Below, in pieces: positions 40,801-62,400 of a DNA stretch of 64,000 bases. Made by a program: the position numbers and the translations under genes. Source of the stretch: Scheffersomyces stipitis CBS 6054 (taxonomy: Eukaryota; Ascomycota; Pichiomycetes; Serinales; Debaryomycetaceae); contig NC_009048.1 in assembly GCF_000209165.1 (NCBI RefSeq), forward strand, positions 248,001 through 312,000, written 5' to 3'. The notes below the pieces were generated by a model that was not told the DNA's origin, searched no databases, and saw only the letters and a program-made list of their open reading frames with translations. Numbering within the stretch: position 1 is the first letter of the stretch; every line of letters starts with the position of its first letter.

Positions 40801-42674
40801 ACAGTACTGCCAGATGGCGTGGATGGAGGTGAGGGAGATGGGGCCAGAGATACATGAGGACCCTGAGTGAGGCCTGGAGCGGGTGCCAGAATAGAAGGAA
40901 AACTTCCACCACCACTACCACCACCACCAATGGAGGTAGCCGACACGACAGTTGACGTCAGAGGTCTTGCAAAAGGAAAGACATTTTCCTGGAACCGAAC
41001 ATGAGAAGAGGTAATCACTTGTCTGGTAGCGAGATCATAAACAAGATGAGCTTTCCGAAACGGATCAGATCCAAGATAAACACCCTTGATTGCACGAGCG
41101 ACCAACTTCAGTTGACGGTGATTGGGTGGAACATTCACAAAGGCAGCACACCCAAACACTTTAAGTTGAGATAAGATAGGCCTCGCGCCATGCCAGAGTT
41201 CAAATGGCGAGCGATTTTGGAGAACAGGTGTTGGTAGCCGGTTTAGGAGAAATGCAGCATGTTGGAGTGCATGCGGGTAGAGGGGCGAAGGAAGAGAGCT
41301 CGCAGTAATCATGGTACGCGTTTTGTCAAGAACGGAGCGAATCGCTCTTTCAGCACGTCCATTTTGATGTGAGTTACCAGGCACAGTGAGCTGGGTCTGG
41401 ATACCTTCTGCCGCAAAGAATGAAGTAAGCGTCAGATTGACAAACTCACCTCCATTGTCAGAACGAAAGTTACAGACACGGTAGCCACCACGACTGGAGA
41501 AGTGGTTTGTCCATGCCTTAATAACTTTGATAATGAAGTCCGCAGCATCCGATTTCTTGAGGATAGGGCCAACAGCCTTGAAGCGAGTAAAGTCGTCAAG
41601 AAGAATACAAAAATAAAACAACGAGGAGGGACCACCGGCATGAGGACCGGACAAATCACAGTGAAGAAGTTGCAAGGGAGCAGATGTGACTGGACCGGTG
41701 GTCGTTTTGGGAATAACCCGAGTGCTCTTGGAGCGAAGACATGCTTCACATGAAATCGAGTCGTGAACAGCCGTTCGAGGCATGTTCGGATATTTCAAGG
41801 CCAGACGAACGACAGTCGGAGAAGGGTGGCCAAGGCGAGCATGGACAAGAGCAGAGGCAGAAATAGGTGCCACACCAGGGTCCGCAGCAGGAGTAGCGAC
41901 CGTAACAGGAGCGGGGGCCGAGTAGGCAGAGTGGTTAGCCCGCGAGACAGTCGAGGGGCGGACAATTTCGAGACACAGCAAGTAAAGATTTCTCAGGTCT
42001 CTGGTAGCAAGTTGGCCATACTTAGGGTGAACAATGTCATCATGAGAGATAACAAGCTTGTCGCCCGTAGTAGTAACAGCCAGGATGGAAAGAAGATTCT
42101 GAGTACAGTCAGGAACGTGAAGAACGTTAAAGACACGAATCTTCTGACCATGGAGATCAAACACAAGAGTACCACGACCGGCAATCGAGAGAGGCTCGTG
42201 ACCGGCGTTCATGACAGAACCAGAGTGAGGAACGATGTCATGGAAGAGACTTCTGTCGTTACAAATGTGGGTAGAAGCACCTGAATCAAAAATAAAGCTG
42301 GCAGAGGAAGAAGAAGCCAAGAGAGCATAGTGGGTGTAGTGGGCGAGATGGGCATAGTAAGCACCGGGCTGGTCAAAACCAAAGGTCAGAGCATCATCAG
42401 CGAGAGCATAATGAGCAGCAGGCTTTGGACGAGAGCCGTGCTTCCTGCGGTGCTTTCCTGGACCGCCAGGACCGAAACGAGAAGCCATACGAGGAACTTC
42501 ACCCTCACGATAGGGAGCAGGGCAGTTCTTGGCCATGTGACCACACCCATAGCAGTTGTAGCAATCAAGCTGCCAAATCAGATCCGTACCTTTAGCCTTG
42601 ATCAAGTTCCTGGTGACAGGACCCGAAGGTGAAGACAAGGAGGTAAGGGCATAAGCAGATTGAGACGAGGACAG
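37807..42674 (-). pseudogene. A1 gag-pol pseudogene
   Basis: Reading right to left: the end of gag with the CYNCYGCGHMAKNC knuckle, protease DSGA, integrase (HHCC, DDE), the proline-rich linker, RT with YVDD, and RNase H. The frame is broken by a TAA where A2 has CAA (Gln) in the EQYGTHP segment, and by a 7-bp deletion after VADMFT. It retains the catalytic RT Asp (HQMDVSTAFLNG) that A2 has lost. One other notable change is YGRKQAPLIW instead of YGLKQAPLIW. Confidence 0.88.
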
Positions 42675-42707: not shown

Positions 42708-43627
42708 TGTTGAAATCCGGTATTAGATAAAGTTTGATAATGCATGAATATGCATGATCTAGAAAATATCATAGATACCGGATATTGATAATCTAATAGA
42801 TTTGGCTGCAACTCTTGTGAGAGCAAATCATATATCATAATAAGGATATGGTGGTAATAGAAAACACAATGGCAGGTATACAGAGATGATAGGAGAACCC
42901 CACACGGACATATGGAAACAGATGTGGAGAAAGGTGTTGAGATTGGAAATCTAGAGTAATCCAATAGATTGAAGTTTAGTTATATAACAAGAAACTGAGC
43001 GTGCAAGAAACTGCGAATGCAAGAAATAATATTTCAGATTAGAAGCATTATTCAGAAACGCACAGGTTGCAAATTAAGCCGCACTGATGTGCAGGCAACT
43101 CTGAGGTATAAAAGAAAGCTGAAATCCTCAAAGTCTTGAAAAAGTTTATACGTTTATAATTAATCAATTTACGATTCATTTGAGGGAGGTTATTCTAGAG
43201 ATGTAGAGAATAACATATTGAACAACTGTAGGATACGCTGTATCCATATAGACAAGTTGCGCGCCTTGTTTAAACAGTTGTATCAAGATAAAGAAGAAGA
43301 CAGACAAATTACAACATGGATAGGCAATCAAGAGGTCTACATAAACTAGAGTCCATCATATCAACAATTCACATTTCAATAAAAGGTCTCAACCCCACAG
43401 CTATGAGATGAACGTGATGCAGAGAATAGGATCCATGAGATATTGAACAAGAATCACATGGAGCATGTGAGTGTGAGACAACAACATAAATAAGGGTGGT
43501 ATCCCCTTAGAGTTAGATAGACTTTCTAAATGTTTTAATAACGATAACTAGAACAACTTACAAGTTCTACCTTTACTGTTAACAATTATTACACGTAAGA
43601 CACTATGAATGCTTCTGAACTTCAACA
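42708..43627 (+). repeat. 5' LTR of element B1, interrupted by a solo C LTR
   Basis: It starts TGTTGAAATCC and ends CTTCAACA. Outside the C insertion it matches the downstream LTR over 468 bp with one visible difference (near 42763). The promoter region ATAAATAAG (43486-43494) and the gag ATG (43605) are on the gag side of the insertion. The arms ATCCGGTAT and ATACCGGAT near the LTR start can pair. Confidence 0.9.
42935..43381 (+). repeat. Solo LTR of element C, 447 bp
   Basis: It starts TGTTGAGATTGG and ends TTTCAATA, and is flanked by the target duplication AAAGG (42930-42934 and 43382-43386). It has the same length as both LTRs of the full C element (55317-55763 and 58534-58980), but the opposite orientation. 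It carries TATAAAAG at 43107-43114. It was left by LTR-LTR recombination after a C insertion into B1's LTR. Confidence 0.93.
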
Positions 43628-46600
43628 GGTTATGAGCCGTCACCTGAAGTTCAACTACTCAATCTCGTTTCCTTCAGAACAAATGTTGACTTCCATCAAC
43701 GACTTTTCATTATGGAAAACCAGAATGGATCAACTTTTCGAACCAATTGGAAAAGAATTTGTGGCATATCTTTTGCCTCTGACAAATGTTGACACTGGAT
43801 ACACTTCTGAGGACAGATCCGCATTCAACTCCTATATTGACTTTGTTCTTTCCAAAACCTTGTCTGAGAAAGTTCGTAGTACTCTCAGTCGTGAGCCAGT
43901 CACTGGCAGAGCACGTTGGTTACGGGTTCTTGATCTTTATGGTACCATGGATCACCACGATGTTGCTCACTATGTCAAGTCGTTATTGACAGTGATTAGC
44001 ACTCCATCTTTGACAACTGACGTGGTTAAGCCGGTTTTTGACTCTCTTTATTCCTTGAACGAATCCTATACCTTTGATGAAATTAAGGGTCTTCACCTTC
44101 TAGTTACTCGAAGTTCCCCTAATCTCATGCAAAATTACTTCCACCTGGGCAACGAATCGTTGAAGTATGATGATGTTTTCAAATTTCTAGCAAAAGCAGA
44201 GAATTCTACCGAAACTCCTACTGCTCCATCAGTTCTTGCTGCTACCTTTTCCACTGACACCAGACGTCCTTCTGTTGATGCCAATGATCCGCTTTGGAAC
44301 ACTAAGTGTTACAACTGTGGTGGTCGTGGTCACAGACGTGATGTGTGTTGCTCGCCTATTCGTGTTGGTAAGTATACTGGATGGCTGACCAATACGTCCA
44401 AGAAGCGCTCCTTTAGTGACAATGAGCGCAAGAAGCAATACAAGTCAGGTGCTACTGCAAATGTTGCTGTTAACGAAAGTGCTTTCGTGCTCACTACAAC
44501 CACCGGCACCACGACATCTCAGTCACCGGAGTTCATCTTTGACTCTGGTGCTTCGATTCACATTTGTCATGATCGGTCCTTGTTTTGGACTTTTCAACCG
44601 GAGTCCGGTAGTTTTGTTTCTTGTGCTGGCGGAGTTCGTCTTCCTGTCTTAGGTAGAGGGTCTATCAAGTTTAGGTCTGCTGATGAGACTATAGTCCTTC
44701 AGGAAGTATGCTATGTTCCAGAATGCACTAAGAATCTTATCTCCGTGCATGCTGCTGTTCGTGTCTCTGGTTCGCCCCTTACCACCAAAGTAGACGGAAT
44801 CTATCATCCACGGATTGGTCGTTTTGGTGTCTATAGGGACGATCTTGGACTTTCCGTCCTTGATATGACACCTGTACCACCTTTAGTCTCCGCCTTATCT
44901 GTTCTTCATAACCGTCTTGGTCATCCGCATCAGGCTATTGAACAGCAAGTTCTTCGTGACAATTACTCGCTTGCTGAAATTGAGAAAATTGGTGATGTAA
45001 CGAAGAGTTGTGCCAGCTGTCTGGAATATAAGAAGACACGTAGTATCCCGAAGGTTTCCCATAAATCGGATACAACAACTCCTTTACAAATCCTTCACTC
45101 GGATGTCTCCGGCCCTCATAATACGCCAGGAATCTCTTCTGAAAGTTATTTCTGTGTGCTTGTGGATGATTATAGCAAGTTTAAGTGGGTGTTCCCAATC
45201 GTTAGGAAGTCGGATGCGGCCCACCAGATTATTATCCATATTCGGCTATTACACTCATTTTTCTCTACTCGTGGTGGATATCGTGTTGGTGCCCTTCGTA
45301 CAGATAATGGGGGTGAATTTGTCAACCATAGTCTCAGGAGCTTCCTTGAACAGGAAGGTATAGCACATCAGCGTACGGTTGCTCACAATTCTTATCAGAA
45401 TGGAACCGCAGAGCGTTCGATCCGCTCGGTAATCGATAAGGCCAGGACGCTACTTGGACATGCTTCTGTTCCTCAAGCATTCTGGCCCTACGCTGTTAAA
45501 TGTGCCGCATATTTATTGAATAGGCTCCCCTCCAGGATTATTGCTGACAAGACGCTGTTCGAACTATTGCACCTCGAACCACCGTCGATTGATCATCTTC
45601 GCACGTTTGGGTGTGCTGCATTTGCTTATATTCCTGAACCTCTTCGTCCCCTGAAATTCTCACCTCGGGCCGTTAAAGGCGTGATGTTAGGCTATGATAG
45701 CAACCGCTCCTCATACTTGATATATGAATTACATTCTCATAAAGTAGTTAGCTCCAATCAAGTTTCGTTTGATGAATCGATCTACCCATTTGAAAACTCA
45801 CCTGATCATGCGCCAACTACGTCTGCTTCGACTATTCCTATGGGCGTGTCTGGTGTCCCTCGCTTCTCATCCGACGTTGCCACCACTTCACGAGCTGAAC
45901 ACATCTCGAGTGATGAACATGAAACTTCCTCGAGCGATCACTCACGCGCACAATCACCTGATATGCACAGGGAAGATTCTCCTGCTACCCCTGTATCTAT
46001 TTCGCACAATTTGCAACCATTACATTCGTCCCCTGCTGGGTCTCTTCTGTCCTATGATTCCACGGACTCTGAACTTGCACGCATGCCATCTAATCTCCTC
46101 GCATCCGATTCTACGGGGGGTGAGGTTCTCACCAAACACTCATTGACACCAGTGATAAGTCCTGACCAAAATCAGAGGACAGGAAACAAGAGAAAGAAAG
46201 TGCCATCAACGAAGATGACAAAGAAAGTGAGATATGAATACATTGAAGATGACAATGAGTTTTGGAACGAGACTTTAGAATCGAATAGCGATGATCCGAA
46301 TGATGATACATATGATGAAGCTAATATTTGCATCCAAGGTCATGCTTATCAAATGTCGGTTGAATCTACAGAGAGCAAGAAAGTACCAAACACATACGAA
46401 GAAGCCATTAATTCTTCAGATTCTGAGAAATGGATTGAAGCCATGAATACCGAAATGGCTGCTCATTCTGAAAATGACACATGGACATTAGTGGATCTCC
46501 CGGAAAAGAAAACGAAAGTCCTTGGAGTAAGATGGGTGTACACCATCAAGGATGGAGGAAAATACAAAGCTAGGCTTGTGGTACGAGGATTTCAACAAAG

Positions 46601-47885
46601 ATATGGAGTTGATTACAAAGAGACGTTTGCTCCAGTAATTAGGAGTGAGAGTGTCAAGTTGTTACTTGCACTTGCGGCCATGTATGGAAAGAAGGTACAC
46701 CAGATGGATGTGTCAACTGCATTCTTGAATGGTAAGATTGATCTTAAGATCTACATGAAGCAACCATCTGGGTACCAGGATTGTAGTGCCTTTGAGAAGG
46801 TGTGTCAGCTTAATAAGTCCTTGTACGGATTGAAACAGGCTCCATTGATATGGAATGAAACAATGAATAGTTTCCTTGAGAAGATCGGTTTTAAAAGGTC
46901 TTTGTCAGAGTATGGACTATACACGAGAAGAAGTGTGATCATTGGACTTTATGTCGATGATTTATTGATTGCTGGAGACAATCAGAATGAGATAAAAGAA
47001 ATCAAGGGACAGTTGAGTGCCCAGTTCAAGATGAAAGATCTTGGAATAGCTAGGAAGTTCCTAGGCATTAATATCACTCAAGGGAGTGATGGAATAAAAG
47101 CAGACTTAGGGGATTATATTGATAAGATCCTAGAAGAGTTCGGAATGGAGAACTGTAACCCAGTATCAACACCAGGTTTGCCTGGATTGAAACTTGAAAA
47201 TAACGAGACTGCGTTATTGGAGAATCCTACCTTATACCGATCAATAGTTGGAAAGTTGCTATATGCTAGCAACACGGTAAGAGGAGACATAAGTTTTATT
47301 ACAGGAGTTCTCAGTAGATACTTTAAAGAGCCAAGAGAGGCACATCTTACAGCAGCGAAGCATGTTCTTCGATATCTCAAGGGAACCAGGTCTCTTGGGC
47401 AACGTTACTCAAAGACTGGACAACTTGAAGTATTTGTAGACGCAGATTGGGGATCTTCAACAGACAATAGGAAATCCATCACGGGCTATGCAGTGAAGTT
47501 CGGAGGAGGATTGATTTCTTGGAAATCGAAGAAGCAAGCTATAGTCGCAACTTCTACCACTGAAGCCGAATATATCGCACTAGCAGAAGCCGTGAAAGAA
47601 GTGCTTTGGTTAAGAACCCTATTTGGTGAACTACAGATACCACTAACATTACCTATAGGAATTCATGAGGATAATGTATCCTGTATAAAACTAAGTGAAC
47701 ATCCAACCGTTCATCTGAGGACTAAGCATATCGACATAAGATACCATTTCATCCGTGAAAGGATAAAAGAGGAGACCATAAAATTAATACCTGTCAAATC
47801 TGAATTCAATATAGCCGACATATTCACAAAGGCGCTAGCAAAACCACAACACATAAAATTAAGAGCGTTAGCAGGGATTTCGTGA
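43605..47885 (+). CDS. Element B1 Gag-Pol polyprotein (Ty1/Copia order)
   Basis: 1426 aa in one frame, starting at an ATG inside the LTR (MNASELQQ) and reading through the PBS. Gag ends with a CYNCGGRGHRRDVC knuckle (about 235-248). Protease is FDSGAS (from 312). Integrase has its H-H-C-C finger (HNRLGH ... CASC, about 437-475), HSDVSG, DNGGEF and NGTAERS. RT contains HQMDVSTAFLNG and YVDD (1116-1119). RNase H contains DADWGS and TTEAEY. The order protease-integrase-RT-RNase H is the Ty1/Copia order. There is no Gag/Pol frameshift or stop, as in Ty5. All catalytic residues I can check are present, so this copy may be active. Confidence 0.95.
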   Translation: MNASELQQVMSRHLKFNYSISFPSEQMLTSINDFSLWKTRMDQLFEPIGKEFVAYLLPLTNVDTGYTSEDRSAFNSYIDFVLSKTLSEKVRSTLSREPVTGRARWLRVLDLYGTMDHHDVAHYVKSLLTVISTPSLTTDVVKPVFDSLYSLNESYTFDEIKGLHLLVTRSSPNLMQNYFHLGNESLKYDDVFKFLAKAENSTETPTAPSVLAATFSTDTRRPSVDANDPLWNTKCYNCGGRGHRRDVCCSPIRVGKYTGWLTNTSKKRSFSDNERKKQYKSGATANVAVNESAFVLTTTTGTTTSQSPEFIFDSGASIHICHDRSLFWTFQPESGSFVSCAGGVRLPVLGRGSIKFRSADETIVLQEVCYVPECTKNLISVHAAVRVSGSPLTTKVDGIYHPRIGRFGVYRDDLGLSVLDMTPVPPLVSALSVLHNRLGHPHQAIEQQVLRDNYSLAEIEKIGDVTKSCASCLEYKKTRSIPKVSHKSDTTTPLQILHSDVSGPHNTPGISSESYFCVLVDDYSKFKWVFPIVRKSDAAHQIIIHIRLLHSFFSTRGGYRVGALRTDNGGEFVNHSLRSFLEQEGIAHQRTVAHNSYQNGTAERSIRSVIDKARTLLGHASVPQAFWPYAVKCAAYLLNRLPSRIIADKTLFELLHLEPPSIDHLRTFGCAAFAYIPEPLRPLKFSPRAVKGVMLGYDSNRSSYLIYELHSHKVVSSNQVSFDESIYPFENSPDHAPTTSASTIPMGVSGVPRFSSDVATTSRAEHISSDEHETSSSDHSRAQSPDMHREDSPATPVSISHNLQPLHSSPAGSLLSYDSTDSELARMPSNLLASDSTGGEVLTKHSLTPVISPDQNQRTGNKRKKVPSTKMTKKVRYEYIEDDNEFWNETLESNSDDPNDDTYDEANICIQGHAYQMSVESTESKKVPNTYEEAINSSDSEKWIEAMNTEMAAHSENDTWTLVDLPEKKTKVLGVRWVYTIKDGGKYKARLVVRGFQQRYGVDYKETFAPVIRSESVKLLLALAAMYGKKVHQMDVSTAFLNGKIDLKIYMKQPSGYQDCSAFEKVCQLNKSLYGLKQAPLIWNETMNSFLEKIGFKRSLSEYGLYTRRSVIIGLYVDDLLIAGDNQNEIKEIKGQLSAQFKMKDLGIARKFLGINITQGSDGIKADLGDYIDKILEEFGMENCNPVSTPGLPGLKLENNETALLENPTLYRSIVGKLLYASNTVRGDISFITGVLSRYFKEPREAHLTAAKHVLRYLKGTRSLGQRYSKTGQLEVFVDADWGSSTDNRKSITGYAVKFGGGLISWKSKKQAIVATSTTEAEYIALAEAVKEVLWLRTLFGELQIPLTLPIGIHEDNVSCIKLSEHPTVHLRTKHIDIRYHFIRERIKEETIKLIPVKSEFNIADIFTKALAKPQHIKLRALAGIS
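43628..43638 (+). promoter_or_regulatory. Primer-binding site of element B1 (initiator tRNA-Met anticodon loop)
   Basis: GGTTATGAGCC follows the LTR with no gap. It is the complement of GGCTCATAACC in the anticodon stem-loop of fungal initiator tRNA-Met, the internal half-tRNA priming used by Ty5 and Drosophila copia. The ATG in the PBS pairs with the CAU anticodon and is in the gag frame. Confidence 0.85.
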
Positions 47886-47909
47886 AGAGACTATTAGATT
47901 AAGGGAGGC

Positions 47910-49006: not shown

Positions 49007-49030
49007 TCCCCCCTTAATCCAATGGTCATT

Positions 49031-52000
49031 TTATTGGGTTAGTTGCATTCCTGATAGTTGGATTAAGTGTTGGAAGGTTCCTGGAGTTAGTCCTTTTGTA
49101 AACATATCTGCAACGTTGTCGGCAGATTTGATTTGGCGAAGTTTGACAATATTGTCTATGATTTTGTCACGGATAAAGTGATAGCGAATATCTATGTGTT
49201 TCGTACGTTCGTGGTGTACAGGATGTTCGCTGAGTTTGATACACGAGGTGTTATCTTCCCAAATCATTATTGGTAGTGATATTGGGATTCGAAGTTCTCT
49301 GAAGAATGTTATTAGCCAGATAACTTCTTTTATAACGGTTGCGAGGGCCATGTACTCAGCTTCAGTGGTTGACAATGCTGTGGTGGTTTGTTTCTTGGAT
49401 TTCCAAGAGATTAGGCTTCCCCCATACTTGATGGCATACCCACTGATTGATTTCCTGTCACTGCTATCACTTCCCCAGTCTGAGTCAACAAACACTTGTA
49501 GATCGTTTATGTTTGTGTAGTGCTGACCGAGTTTCTGTGTTCCTTTTAGATAGCGGAGAACATGTTTGGCGGCAGTTAGAGTTACCTCTGTTGGTTCGTT
49601 GAAGTACCGACTTAACATTCCAACAATATAAGCAATATCACCTCGTATGGTATTGCTAGCATAAAGAAGCTTTCCTACTATGCTTCTGTAAATTGTTGCA
49701 TCGCAGGGTTTGGATTTCTGGTTTAGATGCTGTCCCTGAATAATAGGACTTTTCACGCTGTTGAGCTCTTCAAGATTTAGTTCCTCCAACGTTTTCTTGA
49801 TGTAGTCAGAAAGATTTGCTGTGATCCCTTCAGGGCCCTGTTCTATGTTGATTCCTAGGAATTTGCGTGCCAATCCAAGATCCTTCATCTTGAACTTGTT
49901 CAGGAGAAGTTTCTTGGCTTCGTAGATTTCATTTTCTCGAGGACTCGCAATAAGTAGGTCATCAACGTAAAGGCCAAGAATCACATTATTTCTTCTGTAG
50001 ATCCCGAACTCGGATTTTGATCGAATAAAGCCGTTATTCTCCAAGAATTTATTAATAGTCGAGTTCCAGATCAATGGAGCTTGTTTTAGACCGTAGAGTG
50101 ATTTGTTCAACTTACAAACCATATGTGGATATTGTTCATCCATGAAACCTTTAGGCTGCTTAATGTAGAGTTCTGTGTCAATCTTCCCATTTAGGAAGGC
50201 CGTCGAGACGTTCATCTGATGAATCTTCATCTTATGTACAGCCGCTATGGCTAGTAGAAGTTTGATACTTTCACTCCTGATCACAGGCGCAAAGGTTTCT
50301 TCATAGTCAATTCCATGTTTTTGTCTAAAACCTAGAGCAACTAGTCTGGCTTTGTAAGTTCCATCATCTTTGATGGTATATACCCACTTCATTCCTAGGG
50401 CTCGTTTTCCCTTAGGAAGCTCAGCAAGAGTCCACGTGGAGTTTTCCATTTGAGCACCAAATTCCTTGTTCATAGCTTCAATCCATCGTTCTCGTTGAGG
50501 ACTGTTAGTGGCTTCCTCATAGGTGCGTGGCACTTGTGGAGTCATTATGGTGACCATAAATGCACTGCTACCCATAATGAGAGGTTGGCCATGTGTTTCA
50601 GTATAGTCGAGATCGTTGGGATTGTCTGCTTCTGAAAACGATTCACTATCGGTGGTGATGTACTCAATTTGTTGTCTCTGTGGATAGTTGATCAAATTTT
50701 GATTGTCCTGTTGTCTCTGTGACCGTGTTGGAACAAGTATTGGTCTGTGTGCCCGCTTGAGTGTTTGTGGATGTGTTCCATCACGCGACGGAACCGGGGT
50801 GAGTTTATGCTTAACCCCATTCACCGGAGGAGGACGCGATACAACAAGATGAGTTAGTTTGTTGTTGGCCTCAGAATTCAGAGGGACCAAGGCACGGTCA
50901 GTCAGCGATAGGATGAGTTCCATCCCCCCTGAAGCAGGCAACTCAATGAGACGAGTAGGAGAAAGACCCGGAGGGAGGAGGAATTGCTGAGGACGAGATT
51001 GAAGTGGGGGAGAATCAGGAACCTCAATAATAGGAGAGGATTGTGGAGAGTCGGATTGAACGACCCGAGGCAGTGGTTGAGGAGGAGGTGGAGGAGTGGA
51101 GGACACCACAGTCTGCGTAGTAGGAGTATGACGAGTGAGCGGCAGAGGATAAGTGGCGGAGGTGTCCTCCATTTCCATATTAGAAGTAGGACGAATAAGC
51201 GGAAGGGGATCCATGTCGGAGGCATCCTCCATTTCCGAGTCATGATAAGAAGAAAGGTCATCCGAATCCATCACCACGATGTCCATATAGGTGGACGGAT
51301 CTGGATATTCTTCCTGATCCAGCAGAACATCCATAGAGGAGCGCGTGGAGATCAAAGGTGACGAACGGGGATGAGTACCGTATTGCTCAGGAGCATCGAA
51401 GAATTCCTGATCAGAGACCACTTCCATGTCATAGCCATCTTCAGACATAGGTTCAGGCTCAGTATCCGTAGAGTCTATTTCCATGGGTATGGCTGATGAA
51501 GATCCAGGGATAGGGGATGGAGCCTCAACCGCAGGATGAGGAAGACCGAGAGGAGCAGTAGGAGCAGATGGTCTATTGCGAGGAACAGGAAGAAGGGAGG
51601 GTACTGTACGAGGTGCTGGAAGTGAAGGTACCGTACGAGTAGAAGGAAGAGATGGCACCTTACGAGTTGAAGGAAGGGAGGGTACCTTACGAGGAGCAGG
51701 AAGGGATGGTACCGTACGAGGAGCAGTAAGAGTTGGTACCTCACGAGAAGCAGGAGCTGTATAGGAGTCGTCAGACAGCTCGTAGGAGTCAGAGGGAGGC
51801 AGATCGGACCTCTGAGCCAGAACAACGGCACGGGATGGTGCAGTTAGGGCCGCAGAAGTAGAAAGTACCAGAGTATCAGAAGGTACCGGAGCAGAAGAAG
51901 GTACCGGAGTAGAAGCAGGAGACGGAGTAGGAGAAGGTACCAGAATAGGAGAAGGCACCGGTGTAGGAGTCGACGGAGGCTGCGACAGAGGAGTAGTGGA

Positions 52001-54592
52001 TGCAGCAGGAGAGACCGGTGCCGAAGCAGACGACAGAGCGGCAGATGAACCTGGCGATTGAACAACAGTACTGCCAGATGGCGTCGATGGAGGCGAGGGA
52101 GATGGGGCCAGAGACACACGAGGACCCTGAGTGAGGCCTGGAGCAGGTGCCAGAATAGAAGGAAAACTGCCACCACCACTACCTCCACCACCAATGGAGG
52201 TAGTCGATACAACAGTAGACGTCAGAGGTCTAGCAAAAGGAAAGACATTTTCTTGGAACCGAACATGAGAAGAGGTAATCACTTGTCTGGTAGCGAGATC
52301 ATAAACAAGATGAGCCTTCCGAAACGGATCAGATCCAAGATAAACACCCTTGATTGCACGAGCGACCAACTTCAGTTGACGGTGATTGGGTGGAACATTC
52401 ACAAAGGCAGCACACCCAAACACTTTAAGTTGAGATAAGATAGGCCTCGCGCCATGCCAGAGTTCAAATGGCGAGCGATTTTGGAGAACAGGTGTTGGTA
52501 GCCGGTTTAGGAGAAATGCAGCATGTTGGAGTGCATGCGGGAAGAGCGGTGAAGGAAGAGAACACGCAGTGATCATGGTACGCGTTTTGTCAAGAACGGA
52601 GCGAATGGCTCTTTCAGCACGTCCATTTTGGTGTGAGTTACCAGGCACAGTGAGCTGGGTCTGGATACCTTCTGCCGCAAAGAATGAAGTAAGCGTCAGA
52701 TTGACAAACTCACCTCCATTGTCAGAACGAAAGTTACAGACACGGTAGCCACCACGACTGGAGAAGTGGTTTGTCCATGCCTTAATAACTTTGATAATGA
52801 AGTCCGCAGCATCCGATTTCTTGAGAATAGGCCCAACAGCCTTGAAGCGAGTAAAGTCGTCAAGAAGAATACAAAAATAAAACAACGAGGAGGGACCACC
52901 GGCATGAGGACCGGATAAGTCACAGTGAAGAAGTTGCAAGGGAGCAGATGTGACTGGACCGGTGGTCGTTTTGGGAATAACCCGAGTGCTCTTGGAGCGA
53001 AGACATGCTTCACATGAAATCGAGTCGTGAACAGCCGTGCGAGGCATGTTCGGATATTTCAAGGCCAGACGAACGACAGTCGGAGAAGGGTGGCCAAGGC
53101 GAGCATGGACAAGAGCAGAGGCAGAAATAGGTGCCACAACAGGGTCCGCAGCAGGAGCAGCGACCGTAACAGGAGCGGGGGCCGAGTAGGCAGAGTGGTC
53201 AGCCCGCGAGACAGTCGAGGGGCGGACAATTTGAAGACACAGCAAGTAAAGATTTCTCAGGTCTCTGGTAGCAAGTTGGCCATACTTGGGGTGAACAATA
53301 TCATCATGAGAGATAACAAGCTTGTCGCCCGTAGTAGTAACAGCCAGGATGGAAAGAAGATTCTGAGTACAGTCAGGAACGTAAAGAACATTGAACACCC
53401 GAATCTTCTGACCATGGAGATCAAACACAAGAGTACCACGACCGGCAATCGAGAGAGGCTCGTGACCGGCGTTCATGACAGAACCAGAGTGAGGAATGAT
53501 GTCATGGAAGAGACTTCTATCGTTACAAATGTGGGTAGAAGCACCTGAATCAAAAATAAAGCTGGCAGAGGAAGAAGAAGCCAAGAGGGCATAGTGGGTG
53601 TAGTGAGCGAGATGAGCATAGTAAGCACCAGGTTGGTCAAAACCAAAAGTCAGAGCATCATCAGTGAGAGCATAATGAGCAGCAGGCTTTGGACGAGAGC
53701 CGTGCTTCCTGCGGTGCTTTCCTGGACCGCCAGGACCGAAGCGTGAGGCCATACGAGGAACTTCACCCTCACGATAAGGAGCAGGGCAGTTCTTGGCCAT
53801 GTGACCACACCCATAGCAGTTGTAGCAATCAAGCTGCCAAATCAGATCCGTACCTTTAGCCTTGATCAAGTTCCTGGTGACAGGACCCGAAGGTGAAGAC
53901 AAGGAGGTAAGGGCATAAGCAGATTGAGACGAGGACAGGACCAGCAAGGCGGAGGACGTGGCAGGAGGAGAAAGTTCATCATGATAAGCAAAGAAATTGA
54001 GAACTTCGTCCGCAGTCACCGTGGGAGTCAGGCGAACTTGAGAAAAGAATAGATCTCTCACCTTGGAGTTTCCCGTACCATAAAGGAAGAGGAGCGCTTT
54101 CATGGAGTCGTTATCGTACTTCGTCATAAACGCAGTCAACTTTTCAGCAATCAAGAACCCAGCTTCAGTCGTAATAGTCGGATCAGCAAGGCGACCAAAT
54201 AAGTACTTGAGATAACCGACCGCATCCCTAGAGCTGGCGATCGCATACTTGGTTTCGACAGCTTTCCAAGTTTCGACACCCAGAGAGTAGTGCGTGAACA
54301 ATGACTGAACGTCAGGCTTCATACACTTGAGGATAAGCTCACGGAGCTTGTGGCTTAACGCCTGCTGGTCCGTAAAGGTGATGGAAAGTTCTTTCTCTGA
54401 AAGATAAGCAGCAATCTCTGTAGCCAAGACACAGCTACTGAACATACCAGTCATCCAGTCTTTCCATTCCAGAAAGTTCTCACGGCCTCTGAGAAGAAGA
54501 GTATCAATGACCATGAGGCCGGAATTTAATTGGCTCATAACCTGTTGAACTGTTTGCTTTGGAAGCTCAGTAGATTGAATCGGATTGTTCAT
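49031..54592 (-). CDS. Element A2 Gag-Pol polyprotein, RT catalytic Asp replaced by Asn
   Basis: 1853 aa from the ATG at 54592, inside the LTR and downstream of its TATA box; the frame is open further upstream but that ATG (54757) precedes the TATA box. Reading order: Gag with CYNCYGCGHMAKNC knuckle (about 255-268), protease FDSGAS (about 347), integrase with HARLGHP ... CEAC finger, HCDLSGP, DNGGEF and NGRAERAI. A long Pro/Ser-rich linker with 8-residue repeats (VPSLPAPR-like) follows, then RT and RNase H (DSDWGS, TTEAEY). RT motif A reads HQMNVSTAFLNG: the catalytic Asp at 1461 is Asn (codon AAC at 50210-50212), although YVDD (1542-1545) is intact. A1 and A3 have Asp here. The enzyme should be inactive as a polymerase. 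Confidence 0.94.
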   Translation of the reverse strand: MNNPIQSTELPKQTVQQVMSQLNSGLMVIDTLLLRGRENFLEWKDWMTGMFSSCVLATEIAAYLSEKELSITFTDQQALSHKLRELILKCMKPDVQSLFTHYSLGVETWKAVETKYAIASSRDAVGYLKYLFGRLADPTITTEAGFLIAEKLTAFMTKYDNDSMKALLFLYGTGNSKVRDLFFSQVRLTPTVTADEVLNFFAYHDELSPPATSSALLVLSSSQSAYALTSLSSPSGPVTRNLIKAKGTDLIWQLDCYNCYGCGHMAKNCPAPYREGEVPRMASRFGPGGPGKHRRKHGSRPKPAAHYALTDDALTFGFDQPGAYYAHLAHYTHYALLASSSSASFIFDSGASTHICNDRSLFHDIIPHSGSVMNAGHEPLSIAGRGTLVFDLHGQKIRVFNVLYVPDCTQNLLSILAVTTTGDKLVISHDDIVHPKYGQLATRDLRNLYLLCLQIVRPSTVSRADHSAYSAPAPVTVAAPAADPVVAPISASALVHARLGHPSPTVVRLALKYPNMPRTAVHDSISCEACLRSKSTRVIPKTTTGPVTSAPLQLLHCDLSGPHAGGPSSLFYFCILLDDFTRFKAVGPILKKSDAADFIIKVIKAWTNHFSSRGGYRVCNFRSDNGGEFVNLTLTSFFAAEGIQTQLTVPGNSHQNGRAERAIRSVLDKTRTMITACSLPSPLFPHALQHAAFLLNRLPTPVLQNRSPFELWHGARPILSQLKVFGCAAFVNVPPNHRQLKLVARAIKGVYLGSDPFRKAHLVYDLATRQVITSSHVRFQENVFPFARPLTSTVVSTTSIGGGGSGGGSFPSILAPAPGLTQGPRVSLAPSPSPPSTPSGSTVVQSPGSSAALSSASAPVSPAASTTPLSQPPSTPTPVPSPILVPSPTPSPASTPVPSSAPVPSDTLVLSTSAALTAPSRAVVLAQRSDLPPSDSYELSDDSYTAPASREVPTLTAPRTVPSLPAPRKVPSLPSTRKVPSLPSTRTVPSLPAPRTVPSLLPVPRNRPSAPTAPLGLPHPAVEAPSPIPGSSSAIPMEIDSTDTEPEPMSEDGYDMEVVSDQEFFDAPEQYGTHPRSSPLISTRSSMDVLLDQEEYPDPSTYMDIVVMDSDDLSSYHDSEMEDASDMDPLPLIRPTSNMEMEDTSATYPLPLTRHTPTTQTVVSSTPPPPPQPLPRVVQSDSPQSSPIIEVPDSPPLQSRPQQFLLPPGLSPTRLIELPASGGMELILSLTDRALVPLNSEANNKLTHLVVSRPPPVNGVKHKLTPVPSRDGTHPQTLKRAHRPILVPTRSQRQQDNQNLINYPQRQQIEYITTDSESFSEADNPNDLDYTETHGQPLIMGSSAFMVTIMTPQVPRTYEEATNSPQRERWIEAMNKEFGAQMENSTWTLAELPKGKRALGMKWVYTIKDDGTYKARLVALGFRQKHGIDYEETFAPVIRSESIKLLLAIAAVHKMKIHQMNVSTAFLNGKIDTELYIKQPKGFMDEQYPHMVCKLNKSLYGLKQAPLIWNSTINKFLENNGFIRSKSEFGIYRRNNVILGLYVDDLLIASPRENEIYEAKKLLLNKFKMKDLGLARKFLGINIEQGPEGITANLSDYIKKTLEELNLEELNSVKSPIIQGQHLNQKSKPCDATIYRSIVGKLLYASNTIRGDIAYIVGMLSRYFNEPTEVTLTAAKHVLRYLKGTQKLGQHYTNINDLQVFVDSDWGSDSSDRKSISGYAIKYGGSLISWKSKKQTTTALSTTEAEYMALATVIKEVIWLITFFRELRIPISLPIMIWEDNTSCIKLSEHPVHHERTKHIDIRYHFIRDKIIDNIVKLRQIKSADNVADMFTKGLTPGTFQHLIQLSGMQLTQ
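54532..54542 (-). promoter_or_regulatory. Primer-binding site of element A2
   Basis: GGTTATGAGCC on the minus strand, directly after the 5' LTR. It is the same initiator tRNA-Met anticodon-loop match as in B1 and C; its ATG is in frame with Gag-Pol. Confidence 0.85.
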
Positions 54593-54935: not shown

Positions 54936-54940
54936 CTATC

Positions 54941-55316
54941 AAGTTTAGGTCTGCTGATGAGACTATAGTCCTTCAGGAAGTATGCTATGTTCCAGAATGC
55001 ACTAAAAATCTTATCTCCGTGCATGCTGCTGTTCGTGTCTCTGGTTCGCCCCTTACCACCAAAGTAGACGGAATCTATCATCCACGGATTGGTCGTTTTG
55101 GTGTATATAGGGACGATCTTGGACTTTCCGTCCTTGATATGACACCTGTACCACCTTTAGTCTCCGCCTTATCTGTTCTTCATAACCGTCTTGGTCATCC
55201 GCATCAGGCTATTGAACAGCAAGTTCTTCGTGACAATTACTCGCTTGCTGATATTGAGAAAATTGGTGATGTAACGAAGAGTTGTGCCAGCTGTCTGGAA
55301 TATAAGAAGACACGTA
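54941..55316 (+). pseudogene. Element B2 fragment 2: protease to integrase zinc finger
   Basis: Continues B2 after A2, matching about 44669-45048 of B1 and including HNRLGHPHQA and CASCLEYKKTR of the integrase finger. It ends at the insertion of element C (target duplication ACGTA, 55312-55316). A few substitutions relative to B1 are present. Confidence 0.9.
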
Positions 55317-55763
55317 TATTGAAATGTGAATTGTTGATATGATGGACTCTAGTTTATGTAGACCTCTTGATTGCCTATCCATGTTGTAATTTGTCTGTCT
55401 TCTTCTTTATCTTGATACAACTGTTTAAACAAGGCGCGCAACTTGTCTATATGGATACAGCGTATCCTACAGTTGTTCAATATGTTATTCTCTACATCTC
55501 TAGAATAACCTCCCTCAAATGAATCGTAAATTGATTAATTATAAACGTATAAACTTTTTCAAGACTTTGAGGATTTCAGCTTTCTTTTATACCTCAGAGT
55601 TGCCTGCACATCAGTGCGGCTTAATTTGCAACCTGTGCGTTTCTGAATAATGCTTCTAATCTGAAATATTATTTCTTGCATTCGCAGTTTCTTGCACGCT
55701 CAGTTTCTTGTTATATAACTAAACTTCAATCTATTGGATTACTCTAGATTTCCAATCTCAACA
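55317..55763 (-). repeat. 3' LTR of element C
   Basis: 447 bp, matching 58534-58980 and the solo LTR at 42935-43381. On the plus strand it starts TATTGAAATGTG and ends CTCAACA. It contains CTTTTATA, the complement of a TATA box. Confidence 0.93.
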
Positions 55764-55983
55764 TTCCCCCATAATCTAATGGTTATTGAAGTTTGCATCT
55801 GATCCAGCTCTTAGTTCAAATCAGTAGCATCTGTTTTGAAAGTATTTGTGAACTTTCACTCTTTGCACTTCCTGATAGACTGGTAATAATCTTCGTGATG
55901 TATAGTCCTTATTTTCAGATTCCATTTGGAGCATCTTGATCACTAGTGATTATTTCTTAAATTTCCTGTTAAATTTCATCCAG

Positions 55984-57021
55984 GAGTAGTATTCCATCAC
56001 TTACGTGATGGTCATATTGTTGTTGGGTAGGATACCCACATTGTGTTGTGATTATCGAGATCAACATTATATCCGATAACGATGTTAGTATGGTATAATG
56101 TAGATATAAGAATGAGGTTATTTGTGTGTACGGCACACTGTAGACATAACCATATCTAACGATGAATCAATTCAACATTACTATTAGATTAGATCATTTG
56201 ATATTTCCAATGTTCAATACTCCTGCTCTTAATCTAATAGTCGTTCATTTTACTCTTACACATTTTGTAAGGGCAACTGTGTAATCAAGTACTCTTGGAT
56301 TAGAACAGCAATCTATTCACATTCCCCCATAATCTAAAAGTACAACATTCGTAATTCACAGATTTGTAGTTTGCACACGCAATGTTCACTATCATCCTCA
56401 CAGTAAATAAAGGTAGTGATGATAGTTTCAGTCAGAACATAGACTCATGTTTCTTATCAGAACCGGTGAGTACTGCACCGCTTGTGCAGATTTTATAACA
56501 GCGCATACTATTCTATATTCGAGAATAGGGTTGCTATCTTTAGCAGATACTCCTTGAATTTGGAGTAGAAAGTAATTCAGATGATACACGTAGACTGCAT
56601 GGGCCCAACAGACTGACGTGGAATCATATGGTTAATATGGACTCTCGGAGCACCATATTGTAGGTTAAATGGAACGCGACATAAGGTTCCAAATAGCACC
56701 GCAACCATGGAATGACTGCGAGTGTATCATTCTAGGTAAGCGAGAACACAATCAGGTTTCTCGCAGAATACAGAGAATACAGTCACAGTAGACTGTAGCA
56801 ATTAATCGTAAAAGAATTAAGAATGACCGGGTGTCACTTTAAAATACAGAAGGAATACCCAAGTTTGTTGGGTAAGACGAGAGGTAGTCGTAACGGACTA
56901 CAGTAGGGAGCCACGGCAGGCTCAGCAATAAATAATAGGAGAACACTCGGGGATCTCTCATATCAGATGATATAGTTATAGAAGACTAGCATCAATAAAT
57001 AGTGGCAGTCTTCTATAACTA
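55984..57021. repeat. Chain of short inverted repeats (hairpins) in element C
   Basis: At least a dozen perfect stems found by eye: CATCAC/GTGATG (55995-56010), GGGTA/TACCC (56025-56037), GTGTG/CACAC inside GGTTAT/ATAACC (56116-56151), ACTATCATC/GATGATAGT (56388-56426), CTGCAC/GTGCAG (56473-56489), CTATTCT/AGAATAG (56508-56528), TGCTA/TAGCA (56532-56545), TACTCC/GGAGTA (56548-56567), GCGAGAA/TTCTCGC (56740-56764), TACCCAA/TTGGGTA (56856-56874), GTAGTC/GACTAC (56884-56901), GAGCC/GGCTC (56908-56923) and the 15-bp TAGTTATAGAAGACT/AGTCTTCTATAACTA (56973-57021). No ORF accounts for them. Confidence 0.85.
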
Positions 57022-57249
57022 GTCGCAAAGGAATAATAGTAAGTAGTAATAACAGACCGAAAGCAAGTAACCATTATGAGCTTGCAGTAAACAGATGGGA
57101 ACGACCACTGCAAATGGTCACATAGAGCTGACAGGAAGTAATTACTCGTCACCCACAGTAAATGGTCCTACAGTACTAGCAGCATAGTCACAAGTGACTA
57201 ACAATAGCAACTATTCACACAGGACTAACGAGAATCAGTCAGTGGATTG

Positions 57250-58072
57250 TCAAAAACTAGTTACTCAGGACCAGAAGGAATCAGCCAAGATAGTGGGCAG
57301 TAGGTAGTCACTCGGGACCAGAAGGAAGCAGCCTCGGCAGGCTGTTAATAAGTAAGATGTCGTTCGCGACAAATAGAGATCCGCCAAGAGGGCCGTCCAT
57401 AAGAAGTAGTCGCTCGGGACTAGTAGAGAGCAGCCAGAGGGCCGTTCAGAAGTATGATGTCGCTCGGGACTAGTAGAGATCAGGCAAGAGGGCCGTCAAT
57501 AAGAAGTAGTCGTTCGGGACCAGTAGAATCAGCCAGAGGGCTGTTAATAAGTAGGATGTCGCACGGGACAAGTGGAGATCAGCCAGAGGGCTGTCAATAA
57601 GTAAGATGTCGCTCGGGACATGAGGAGATCAGCCAGTGGGCTGTTAATAAGTAAGATGTCGCACGGGACAAGTGGAGATCAGCCAGAGGGCTGTCAATAA
57701 GTAAGATGTCGCTCGGGACAAGTGGAGATCAGCCAGTGGGCTGTTAATAAGTAGGATGTCGCACGGGACAAGTGGAGATCAGCCAGAGGGCTGTCAATAA
57801 GTAAGATGTCGCTCGGGACATGAGGAGATCAGCCAGTGGGCTGTTAATAAGTAGGATGTCGCACGGGACAAGTGGAGATCAGCCAGAGGGCTGTCAATAA
57901 GTAAGATGTCGCTCGGGACATGAGGAGATCAGCCAGAGGGCTGTTAATAAGTAAGATGTCGCACGGGACAAGTGGAGAGCAGCCAAGGGGGCCGTCAATA
58001 AGAAGCAGTCGCTCGGGACAAGTAGATATCAGCCTCGGTAGGCTGTCAATCAGTAGAATGTCACTCGGGACA
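57250..58072. repeat. Tandem array of about 50-bp units, two hairpins per unit
   Basis: Roughly 15-17 units. The central ones recur at exactly 50 bp (the GTC of GTCGC.CGGGAC starts at 57558, 57608, 57658, 57708, 57758 and so on). Alternate units differ (GCACGG versus GCTCGG loops, CAGAGG versus CAGTGG), giving a 100-bp higher-order period. Each unit holds hairpin 1 (TGTC-GCTCGG-GACA and variants) and hairpin 2 (CAGCC-AGAG-GGCTG and variants), joined by TAATAAGTA-like spacers. Edge units are more degenerate. There are no unique spacers and no ORF. Confidence 0.92.
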
Positions 58073-58520
58073 AGTATTAATTGATCTCGTCAAACAAATG
58101 AGAGAACAACAAGCTCGGATTCTTGGTATTCGGCAATATACCTCACCGTAATACTACACAGATTATAATCTCTGTATATATATAAAAACATCGAAAGCAT
58201 CGAAAACAGGACAAAGTGACTAGAACTCTTTTTGGTATTTGACACAGGAATAGGACGAATAGAATTTAACCGGATAGATTCATTCTTACACACAGGACAT
58301 GGGTATCGCACATGAAATCGCACTGGAGATGGAGCAAAATGAGCCACACAGAGAAAGAAAAATTTTCACAAGCAGAAGGGGTGAATGAAACGCCACATGA
58401 TATCAACATGGATAGAAAAACACTTCCACATCAACCGAATTCAGCAAACGGACAGAAAGCCAACGATCTGCTCAAAGACTAGAGCAATATCGAAGGATGA
58501 CAGTAAAAGCAGACACTAAC

Positions 58521-58533
58521 AGGGCTCATAACC
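58521..58533 (-). promoter_or_regulatory. Primer-binding site of element C
   Basis: On the minus strand, GGTTATGAGCCCT lies directly next to the 5' LTR, a 13-base match to the complement of the initiator tRNA-Met anticodon stem-loop. It is two bases longer than the match in A2 and B1. Confidence 0.85.
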
Positions 58534-58980
58534 TATTGAAATGTGAATTGTTGATATGATGGACTCTAGTTTATGTAGACCTCTTGATTGCCTATCCATG
58601 TTGTAATTTGTCTGTCTTCTTCTTTATCTTGATACAACTGTTTAAACAAGGCGCGCAACTTGTCTATATGGATACAGCGTATCCTACAGTTGTTCAATAT
58701 GTTATTCTCTACATCTCTAGAATAACCTCCCTCAAATGAATCGTAAATTGATTAATTATAAACGTATAAACTTTTTCAAGACTTTGAGGATTTCAGCTTT
58801 CTTTTATACCTCAGAGTTGCCTGCACATCAGTGCGGCTTAATTTGCAACCTGTGCGTTTCTGAATAATGCTTCTAATCTGAAATATTATTTCTTGCATTC
58901 GCAGTTTCTTGCACGCTCAGTTTCTTGTTATATAACTAAACTTCAATCTATTGGATTACTCTAGATTTCCAATCTCAACA
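58534..58980 (-). repeat. 5' LTR of element C
   Basis: 447 bp, apparently identical to the left copy. CTTTTATA (58801-58808) is the complement of its TATA box. Confidence 0.93.
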
Positions 58981-58985
58981 ACGTA

Positions 58986-59011
58986 GTATCCCGAAGGTTT
59001 CCCATAAATCG
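58986..59011 (+). pseudogene. Element B2 fragment 3 (26 bp of integrase)
   Basis: Continues B2 after C (GTATCCCGAAGG...AAATCG) and is cut by element A3. The last five bases AATCG (59007-59011) are the expected target duplication; the other side is outside the window. Confidence 0.85.
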
Positions 59012-59428: not shown

Positions 59429-62400
59429 TTATTGGGTTAGTTGCATTCCTGATAGTTGGATTAAGTGTTGGAAGGTTCCTGGAGTTAGTCCTTTTGTAAA
59501 CATATCTGCAACGTTGTCGGCAGATTTGATTTGGCGAAGTTTGACAATATTGTCTATGATTTTGTCACGGATAAAGTGATAGCGAATATCTATGTGTTTC
59601 GTACGTTCGTGGTGTACAGGATGTTCGCTGAGTTTGATACACGAGGTGTTATCTTCCCAAATCATTATTGGTAGTGATATTGGGATTCGAAGTTCTCTGA
59701 AGAATGTTATTAGCCAGATAACTTCTTTTATAACGGTTGCGAGGGCCATGTACTCAGCTTCAGTGGTTGACAATGCTGTGGTGGTTTGTTTCTTGGATTT
59801 CCAAGAGATTAGGCTTCCCCCATACTTGATGGCATACCCACTGATTGATTTCCTGTCACTGCTATCACTTCCCCAGTCTGAGTCAACAAACACTTGTAGA
59901 TCGTTTATGTTTGTGTAGTGCTGACCGAGTTTCTGTGTTCCTTTTAGATAGCGGAGAACATGTTTGGCGGCAGTTAGAGTTACCTCTGTTGGTTCGTTGA
60001 AGTACCGACTTAACATTCCAACAATATAAGCAATATCACCTCGTATGGTATTGCTAGCATAAAGAAGCTTTCCTACTATGCTTCTGTAAATTGTTGCATC
60101 GCAGGGTTTGGATTTCTGGTTTAGATGCTGTCCCTGAATAATAGGACTTTTCACGCTGTTGAGCTCTTCAAGATTTAGTTCCTCCAACGTTTTCTTGATG
60201 TAGTCAGAAAGATTTGCTGTGATCCCTTCAGGGCCCTGTTCTATGTTGATTCCTAGGAATTTGCGTGCCAATCCAAGATCCTTCATCTTGAACTTGTTCA
60301 GGAGAAGTTTCTTGGCCTCGTAGATTTCATTTTCTCGAGGACTCGCAATAAGTAGGTCATCAACGTAAAGGCCAAGAATCACATTATTTCTTCTGTAGAT
60401 CCCGAACTCGGATTTTGATCGAATAAAGCCGTTATTCTCCAAGAATTTATTAATAGTCGAGTTCCAGATCAATGGAGCTTGTTTTAGACCGTAGAGTGAT
60501 TTGTTCAACTTACAAACCATATGTGGATATTGTTCATCCATGAAACCTTTAGGCTGCTTAATGTAGAGTTCTGTGTCAATCTTCCCATTTAGGAAGGCCG
60601 TCGAGACGTCCATCTGATGAATCTTCATCTTATGTACAGCCGCTATGGCTAGTAGAAGTTTGATACTTTCACTCCTGATCACAGGCGCAAAGGTTTCTTC
60701 ATAGTCAATTCCATGTTTTTGTCTAAAACCTAGAGCAACTAGTCTGGCTTTGTAAGTTCCATCATCTTTGATGGTATATACCCACTTCATTCCTAGGGCT
60801 CGTTTTCCCTTAGGAAGCTCAGCAAGAGTCCACGTAGAGTTTTCCATTTGAGCACCAAATTCCTTGTTCATAGCTTCAATCCATCGTTCTCGTTGAGGAC
60901 TGTTAGTGGCTTCCTCATAGGTGCGTGGCACTTGTGGAGTCATTATGGTGACCATAAATGCACTGCTACCCATAATGAGAGGTTGGCCATGTGTTTCAGT
61001 ATAGTCGAGATCGTTGGGATTGTCTGCTTCTGAAAACGATTCACTATCGGTGGTGATGTACTCAATTTGTTGTCTCTGTGGATAGTTGATCAAATTTTGA
61101 TTGTTCAGTTGTCTCTGTGACCGTGTTGGAACAAGTATTGGTCTGTGTGCCCTCTTGAGTGTTTGTGGATGTGTTCCATCACGCGACGGAACCGGGGTGA
61201 GTTTATGCTTAACCCCATTCACCGGAGGAGGACGCGACACAACAAGATGAGTTAGTTTGTTGTTGGTCTCAGAATTCAGAGGGACCAAGGCACGGTCAGT
61301 CAGCGATAGGATGAGTTCCATCCCCCCTGAAGCAGGCAACTCAATGAGACGAGTAGGCGAAAGACCCGGAGGGAGGAGGAATTGCTGAGGACGAGATTGA
61401 AGTGGGGGAGAATCAGGAACCTCAATAATAGGAGAGGATTGAGGAGAGTCGGATTGAACGACCCGAGGCAGTGGTTGAGGAGGAGGTGGAGGTGTAGAGG
61501 ACACCACAGTCTGCGTAGTAGGAGTATGACGAGTGAGCGGCAGAGGATAAGTGGCGGAGGCGTCCTCCATGTCCGTATTAGAAGTAGGACGAATAAGCGG
61601 AAGGGGATCCATGTCAGAGGCATCCTCCATTTCCGAGTCATGATAAGAAGAAAGGTCATCCGAATCCATCACCACGATGTCCATATAGGTTGACGGATCT
61701 GGATATTCTTCCTGATCCAGCAGAACATCCATAGAGGAGCGTGTGGAGATCAGAGGTGACGAACGTGGATGAGTACCGTATTGGTCAGGAGCATCGAAGA
61801 ATTCCTGATCAGAGACTACTTCCATGTCATAGCCATCTTCAGACATAGGCTCAGGCTCAGTATCCGTAGAGTCTATTTCCATGGGTATGGCTGATGAAGA
61901 TCCAGGGATAGGGGATGGAGCCTCAACCGCAGGATGAGGAAGACCGAGAGGAGCAGTAGGAGCAGATGGTCTATTGCGAGGAACAGGAAGAAGGGAGGGT
62001 ACTGTACGAGGTGCTGGAAGTGAAGGTACCGTACGAGGTGCTGGAAGAGATGGCACCTTACGAGTTGAAGGAAGGGAGGGTACCTTACGAGGAGCAGGAA
62101 GGGATGGTACCTTACGAGGAGCAGGAAGGGATGGTACCGTACGAGGAGCAGGAAGGGATGGTACCGTACGAGGAGCAGTAAGAGTTGGTACCTCACGAGA
62201 AGAAGCAGGAGCTGTATAGGAGTCGTCGGACAGCTCGTAGGAGTCAGAGGGAGGCAGATCGGACCTCTGAGCCAGAACAACGGCACGGGATGGTGCAGTT
62301 AGGGCCGCAGAAGTAGAAGGTACCAGAGTATCAGAAGGTACCAGAGTAGCAGAAGGTACCGGAGCAGAAGAAGGTACCGGAGCAGAAGAAGGTACCGGAG

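Follow-up and report, generated by a model that had tools for sequence, protein, structure and literature searches.

How does a retrotransposon that encodes no protein multiply in a yeast genome, and whose proteins does it use? The question is raised by an element of 3,664 bp with long terminal repeats (LTRs), lying on the minus strand at positions 55317-58980 of a 64,000-nucleotide (nt) stretch of Scheffersomyces stipitis CBS 6054 (contig NC_009048.1, positions 248,001 to 312,000; this whole stretch is hereafter the window, and coordinates refer to it unless a contig is named). We consider it very likely that the element is one copy of the centromeric large retrotransposon derivative (LARD) of this species, a non-autonomous and protein-less element that is mobilised, most likely, by the proteins of Tps5 retrotransposons.

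The element has the complete anatomy of an LTR retrotransposon, as follows.

55312..55316, no strand: left copy of the target-site duplication (TSD), ACGTA
55317..55763, minus strand: 3′ LTR, 447 bp
55764..57339, minus strand: 3′ part of the interior, non-coding, with many short hairpins (perfect stems of at least 6 bp: 21, against 4.8 ± 2.3 in 30 shuffles)
55766..55780, minus strand: 3′ polypurine tract (PPT) region ATTAGATTATGGGGG, 15 nt identical to the 3′ end of Tps5c at the homologous place (blast E 0.13 by length alone)
56228..56242, minus strand: third stretch resembling the PPT, which matches the 3′ end of Tps5a exactly over 15 nt (again E 0.13 by length alone)
56324..56337, minus strand: internal second copy of the PPT, TTAGATTATGGGGG, 558 nt upstream of the 3′ tract
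57340..58075, minus strand: tandem array of 14.7 copies of a 50-bp unit, of two types
58076..58519, minus strand: 5′ leader behind the primer-binding site, without Tps5 similarity (folding z of 58081-58533, +0.4)
58520..58533, minus strand: primer-binding site (PBS) GGTTATGAGCCCTG, 14 nt, complementary to the anticodon arm of an initiator-type tRNA-Met(CAT)
58534..58980, minus strand: 5′ LTR, 447 bp, with a TATA-containing core in common with telomere-proximal places
58981..58985, no strand: right copy of the TSD, ACGTA

The two LTRs are identical throughout, the PBS (58533 to 58520) directly adjoins the 5′ LTR (58980 to 58534), and the polypurine tract ATTAGATTATGGGGGAA adjoins the 3′ LTR at 55764. 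Within each LTR, a 16-bp sequence is repeated 2.4 times (55672-55710 and 58889-58927). The 2,770-bp interior has no evident coding capacity: with CTG read as serine (translation table 12), stop-to-stop frames contained in the element reach at most 91 amino acids, and a tblastn search with 42 open reading frames (ORFs) of at least 350 amino acids, taken from the fetched genome stretches and the window with host genes included, revealed no protein-level trace of gag-pol. The two matches at E < 0.001 both came from a single ORF, one that extends into a LARD LTR. The original prediction, made from the letters alone, had described just this: a complete non-coding LTR element with paired 447-bp LTRs, an ACGTA duplication, a PBS touching the LTR, a polypurine tract and a 2.77-kb interior without gag or pol, and each of these points was borne out. 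The element is without the Ty5-type gag-pol coding region of the Ty5 group, and it is probably a dependent of that group rather than an autonomous member.

To assess mobility, we searched the genome (15,441,179 bases in 8 contigs, here C1 to C8) and found at least six full-length copies: the window copy on C8, two on C4, and one each on C2, C1 and C7, the ends of the last being read by eye from its flanks. Counts of copies and LTR matches are lower bounds, a local search having given at least one further weak match in a C2 stretch. The six copies are flanked by exact 5-bp TSDs that are all different (ACGTA, AAAGC, TGAAA, CTTCA, GTACG and GCTAG), and within each copy the LTR pair is identical. 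The five copies of 3,664 bp differ from one another at 0 to 9 positions, or at 3-9 when the pair formed by C2 and the C4b copy (1058992) is left aside; these two are identical, yet stand at different sites. The C7 copy differs from the C8 copy by 16 substitutions over 3,532 columns and carries a 16-bp deletion at LTR positions 68-83, the same in both LTRs, as well as a 100-bp deletion of two units in the array. LTR variants were found in both LTRs of whichever copy has them in three of three cases, which implies that the LTRs of a copy were regenerated from one template. This pattern of variants and TSDs is what a reverse-transcription cycle leaves behind, and the LARD family is recently active. 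Because the different TSDs and the paired LTR variants point to movement by reverse transcription and the moving copies have no coding capacity, LARD presumably uses the proteins of another family, as had been proposed from the window copy.

Further LTRs of the family were examined across the genome. At least 41 LARD LTR matches were listed: 23 belong to Tps5 clusters or adjoin them, 18 are no more than about 10 kb from a chromosome end, and none of those listed lies elsewhere; a duplication at the coordinates used was present in two of the six solo or broken LTRs examined. Among the matches listed, contigs C3 and C5 are represented by LARD LTRs and interior fragments without a full copy, and none falls in the C6 cluster. 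A check for copies with gag-pol between LARD LTRs found none, as no LARD LTR pair directly encloses gag-pol on the map of the fetched stretches, and a check for other copies of the interior found at least five further full-length ones, both outcomes speaking for the original prediction. In the window, the solo LTR that the original prediction had assigned to the family (42935-43381) is 100% identical and has the TSD AAAGG. The accompanying statement that the family had moved at least twice here was right as to mobility, but its count is far too low, there having been many more moves than two.

The window element is almost surely the published LARD of S. stipitis, which it matches by species, place and description. 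The xylose reductase encoded on C5 matches PDB 5z6t, the enzyme of S. stipitis, at each of 318 residues. The centromeres of this yeast are described as consisting of Tps5a, Tps5b and Tps5c together with "noncoding, non-autonomous LARD" elements (PMC8546629, citing Coughlan & Wolfe 2019; this and the other papers cited here are represented by excerpts). The kind of element is therefore already known, in a published genome, and the novelty implied by the original prediction falls away, since LARDs of S. stipitis are in print (PMC8546629) and so are Ty5.L (PMC12711049) and Tca1 (PMC7175516). The class assignment agrees with what was found: two LTRs with a TSD, a PBS and a PPT adjoining them, and a 2,770-bp non-coding internal domain kept across at least six full-length copies. 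Terminal-repeat retrotransposons in miniature, by contrast, are very short and almost without an interior.

Compared with other systems, the published S. stipitis LARD is the closest by description, being a non-coding, non-autonomous LTR element in Tps5 centromeric clusters of the same species (PMC8546629). Ty5.L of Wickerhamomyces anomalus shares with the window element a Ty5-type PBS, a non-coding interior (2.4 kb), a location in centromeric regions and LTRs unlike those of its autonomous neighbours; it belongs to another species and is compared by description only (PMC12711049). Tca1 of Candida albicans, likewise compared by description, is a nonautonomous LTR element without ORF sequences from a CTG-clade yeast but measures 5.6 kb and is described without mention of centromeres (PMC7175516). 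The 14-nt PBS (11 nt in the coding elements), the corresponding tRNA letters at two aberrant Tps5c joints, the 50-bp array, the hairpin-rich 3′ half and the telomeric LTR core were not met in the excerpted literature, and we do not claim that they are unreported. Plant LARDs such as Sukkula are much larger than the yeast element. They resemble it in being non-coding, in keeping a core domain and in their assumed trans-complementation (PMC7215508, excerpt).

The surroundings of the window copy point to the candidate helpers.

42935..43381, plus strand: solo LARD LTR with TSD AAAGG, inserted in the 5′ LTR of a complete Tps5a
43628..47909, plus strand: interior of Tps5a (element A of the original prediction) with a gag-pol ORF, possible helper (RVT_2, rve and Pol_BBD above cut-off)
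49007..54542, minus strand: interior of Tps5b (element B) with a gag-pol ORF, possible helper (RVT_2 well above cut-off, rve just below)
54936..55316, plus strand: left part of the target Tps5a fragment, which continues at 58986-59011

When the element was removed, the joined flanks aligned without a gap to Tps5a (407 bp, 99.3%), and removal of the solo LTR gave the same result (468 bp, 99.8%). The Ty5 Gag match of Tps5a falls just below the cut-off (22.2 of 23.5 bits). A 17-base pattern spanning the Tps5 LTR end and PBS occurs at 41 places, and all 41 lie in one cluster per contig on the 8 contigs. Tps5 clusters of this kind are treated as centromeres (PMC8546629, excerpt), and this LARD copy probably sits at a yeast centromere.

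On these grounds we propose the following cycle. RNA polymerase II would transcribe the element from the right-hand LTR (58534-58980), and the RNA would be packaged in particles made by Tps5 elements. The 5′ half of the initiator tRNA (tRNA-iMet) would prime at the 14-nt PBS, whose anatomy is as given above. Tps5 reverse transcriptase, by way of the PPT, would then make DNA with two identical LTRs, in keeping with the single-template LTRs observed, and Tps5 integrase would presumably insert this DNA into the centromeric Tps5 clusters with a 5-bp duplication, where sites and duplications are observed. Mobilisation by Tps5 proteins is the usual inference and agrees with the data.

Several points weigh against this assignment. 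It is by species, place and description, rather than by sequence or coordinates, that the element is equated with the published LARD. LARD and Tps5 have only the PBS and PPT regions in common, and Tps5a, Tps5b and Tps5c are alike candidates for the helper. Other copia-type elements are present on the chromosome arms (the 62 RVT_2 matches lie in Tps5 clusters and on arms alike). Tps5 sequence also occurs outside the clusters: a 191-bp piece on the C7 arm (C7:557990-558180) is 98% like the Tps5c LTR. LARD offers a natural system for how an RNA that shares little beyond primer site and polypurine tract with its likely helpers is packaged and copied, and a good one because helpers and passenger stand side by side and the copies are nearly identical.

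The origin of LARD is a separate matter. LARD may descend from a Ty5-like family, separate, autonomous and since lost, that left LTR relics next to telomeres. This account is compatible with mobilisation by Tps5 today and has, in our estimate, not far short of an even chance. It draws on the LTR core of about 115 bp with GAGGTATAAAAG, which was found at 18 places near 14 of the 16 chromosome ends among the matches listed, with the LTR sense facing the telomere in all 18. The best local alignments of these places to the LTR show 63-73% identity over 169-279 columns (n = 18), and the first TATAAAAG found is the core's own in 16 of the 18, another one having been taken in stretches L049 and L054. 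For an interstitial copy at the left end of C2, the alignment covers LTR positions 4-447 with a score of 252, where the best of 20 shuffles reached 164; for two terminal copies the scores are 209 and 219, with 159 and 152 for the shuffles. By these alignments the telomere-proximal matches look like relic LTRs of the LARD LTR lineage. Against descent from a lost family, visual inspection of the flanks of one relic showed no PBS, PPT or gag-pol, and LARD could instead have acquired the common core from the subtelomere, as a promoter. The telomeric copies of the core link centromeric and telomeric repeats within one yeast. At the left end of C1, the core forms part of a Y′-like unit close to the telomere, about 8.7 kb long and flanked by 24-nt repeats; these agree with the telomeric repeats reported in the excerpt of PMC8546629. 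A 2,147-amino-acid ORF in this unit (L026 1748-8188, CTG read as serine) matched no Pfam family above cut-off.

The tandem array and the folding of the interior raise the prospect that LARD is a domesticated centromere component, with the array or its RNA needed for centromere function. All full copies among the matches listed lie in Tps5 clusters, the two 50-bp unit types alternate over most of the array to give a 100-bp higher-order unit, and a structured RNA is predicted. Compared with shuffled sequences (20 shuffles per stretch, 100 for the leader), the folding z was -7.4 for 56550-57299, -4.9 for 55764-56549, -2.95 for the array and +0.4 for the leader, and z fell below -2 in 17 of 52 LARD segments of 120 nt; for segments from three Tps5 interiors the figure was 19 of 236, and for the window's host DNA 8 of 209. 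On the opposite strand folding is nearly as good (12 of 52), and an excess of perfect stems of at least 6 bp is seen both in the LARD 3′ part (21, as listed above) and in Tps5c (33 against 13.2 ± 3.9 in shuffles). We nevertheless consider domestication very improbable. LARD is not required at each centromere, because among the matches listed the C6 cluster has no LTR match and C3, C5 and C6 have no full copy; LARD numbers, moreover, differ between two S. stipitis strains (PMC8546629, excerpt).

LARDs are said, in the excerpt of PMC7215508, to specify a well-conserved RNA secondary structure. We examined this in an old relic at C5:667628-668349 that is 73-80% identical and lies beside a worn Tps5b copy, no other clearly diverged relative of the LARD interior having been found. 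In the relic, kept pairs were at chance level (136, with 133.8 ± 4.5 expected, at 80% identity over 717 columns, with 70 of 251 sense pairs set aside for gaps), and compensated pairs were not in excess either (2 against 3.4 expected); the antisense fold gave 6 compensated pairs, a count without a null. The relic thus lends no support to selection on LARD RNA pairing, although the folding scores are strong; because the relic is decayed, the comparison is weak evidence against a selected structure and not proof. No Rfam match was obtained up to E 1, and a scan of three Tps5 interiors and four LTRs gave no occurrence of the array hairpin motif. The C7 copy is short in the array by exactly 100 bp, the length of one higher-order unit.

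A recent internal deletion in Tps5a, Tps5b or Tps5c would also yield an element without coding capacity, and we rate this origin slightly lower still. It would account for the PBS start, common over 11 nt, and for the PPT type: the last 40 nt of the LARD interior score against each of the three Tps5 elements at a level matched by 0 of 300 shuffles. Yet the rise above shuffle level is confined to the outermost 40 nt at each end of the interior. The LTR scores against Tps5a, Tps5b and Tps5c were matched by 105, 34 and 274 of 300 shuffles, and those of the leader behind the PBS by 287, 108 and 283. These dissimilarities and the missing gag-pol trace contradict a recent Tps5 deletion, in agreement with the original prediction that LTRs unlike those of A and B exclude a recent deletion product. 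One weak similarity remains, the match of TTCCTGATAG to a pol end, which had been ascribed to element A; it belongs to Tps5b, one of the three elements tested, spans 16 nt with a single gap, and was equalled by 2 of 300 shuffles. Spread of copies between centromeres by recombination or segmental duplication, which the rearranged and nested clusters might suggest, is the least credible account and is contradicted by six different exact TSDs, variants found in both LTRs of a copy and gapless empty sites at the two places tested.

The PBS distinguishes LARD from its likely helpers. GGTTATGAGCCCTG can pair over all its 14 nt with a tRNA-Met(CAT) of initiator-type sequence, which we take to be the initiator tRNA. 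In the genome, the 14-mer occurs 11 times, at 3 tRNA-Met(CAT) genes, 6 LARDs and 2 aberrant Tps5c joints, whereas the reversed 14-mer used as control occurs 0 times. Tps5a, Tps5b and Tps5c in the stretches examined have only GGTTATGAGCC (11 nt against 14 in LARD), and their gag-pol frame starts at the ATG inside it; the earlier claim that the PBS is the same as in A and B thus held for the first 11 nt and not for the remaining 3 of 14.

The two joints, at C3:1424624 and C5:656229, carry tRNA-like letters after the PBS, possibly a trace of the strong-stop DNA end. A second LARD family with a Tps5c LTR was considered for these extra 14-mers and rejected, the sequence after them being Tps5c and LTR. 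At C3:1424624, GGTTATGAGCCCTG runs into AAGTC; since the three other copies read TTCCTAAGTC at this point, at least the G does not come from Tps5c. At C5:656229, the extra CTG is attributable to either side. The tRNA base preceding the 14-mer is a G, presumably G26, a position at which dimethylation is common and halts reverse transcriptase. All eight cases (six LARDs and two joints, the joints being few) would be accounted for if plus-strand strong-stop DNA ended 14 nt into the tRNA primer. The title of a 1994 paper by Lauermann and Boeke on Ty1 reportedly contrasts with the reading of the 14-nt LARD PBS as inherited.

A reading that joins primer site and telomeres is offered tentatively, and as a whole we find it rather unlikely. 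The LARD PBS would be a direct imprint of tRNA-iMet, left by Tps5 plus-strand strong-stop DNA ending at 14 nt and inherited in full, with LARD free of the PBS start codon of the coding elements. The LARD LTR lineage would also have seeded nearly all telomeres, where its TATA core has been kept in telomere-facing orientation, possibly as a promoter of telomeric transcripts. The PBS footprint would provide a sequence-level handle on the plus-strand strong-stop DNA end in the Ty5 group.

Elsewhere in the window, short tandem repeats were seen in Tps5b-type gag-pol at 40316-40885, 51592-52149 and 61948-62658, and their number appears to vary between copies.

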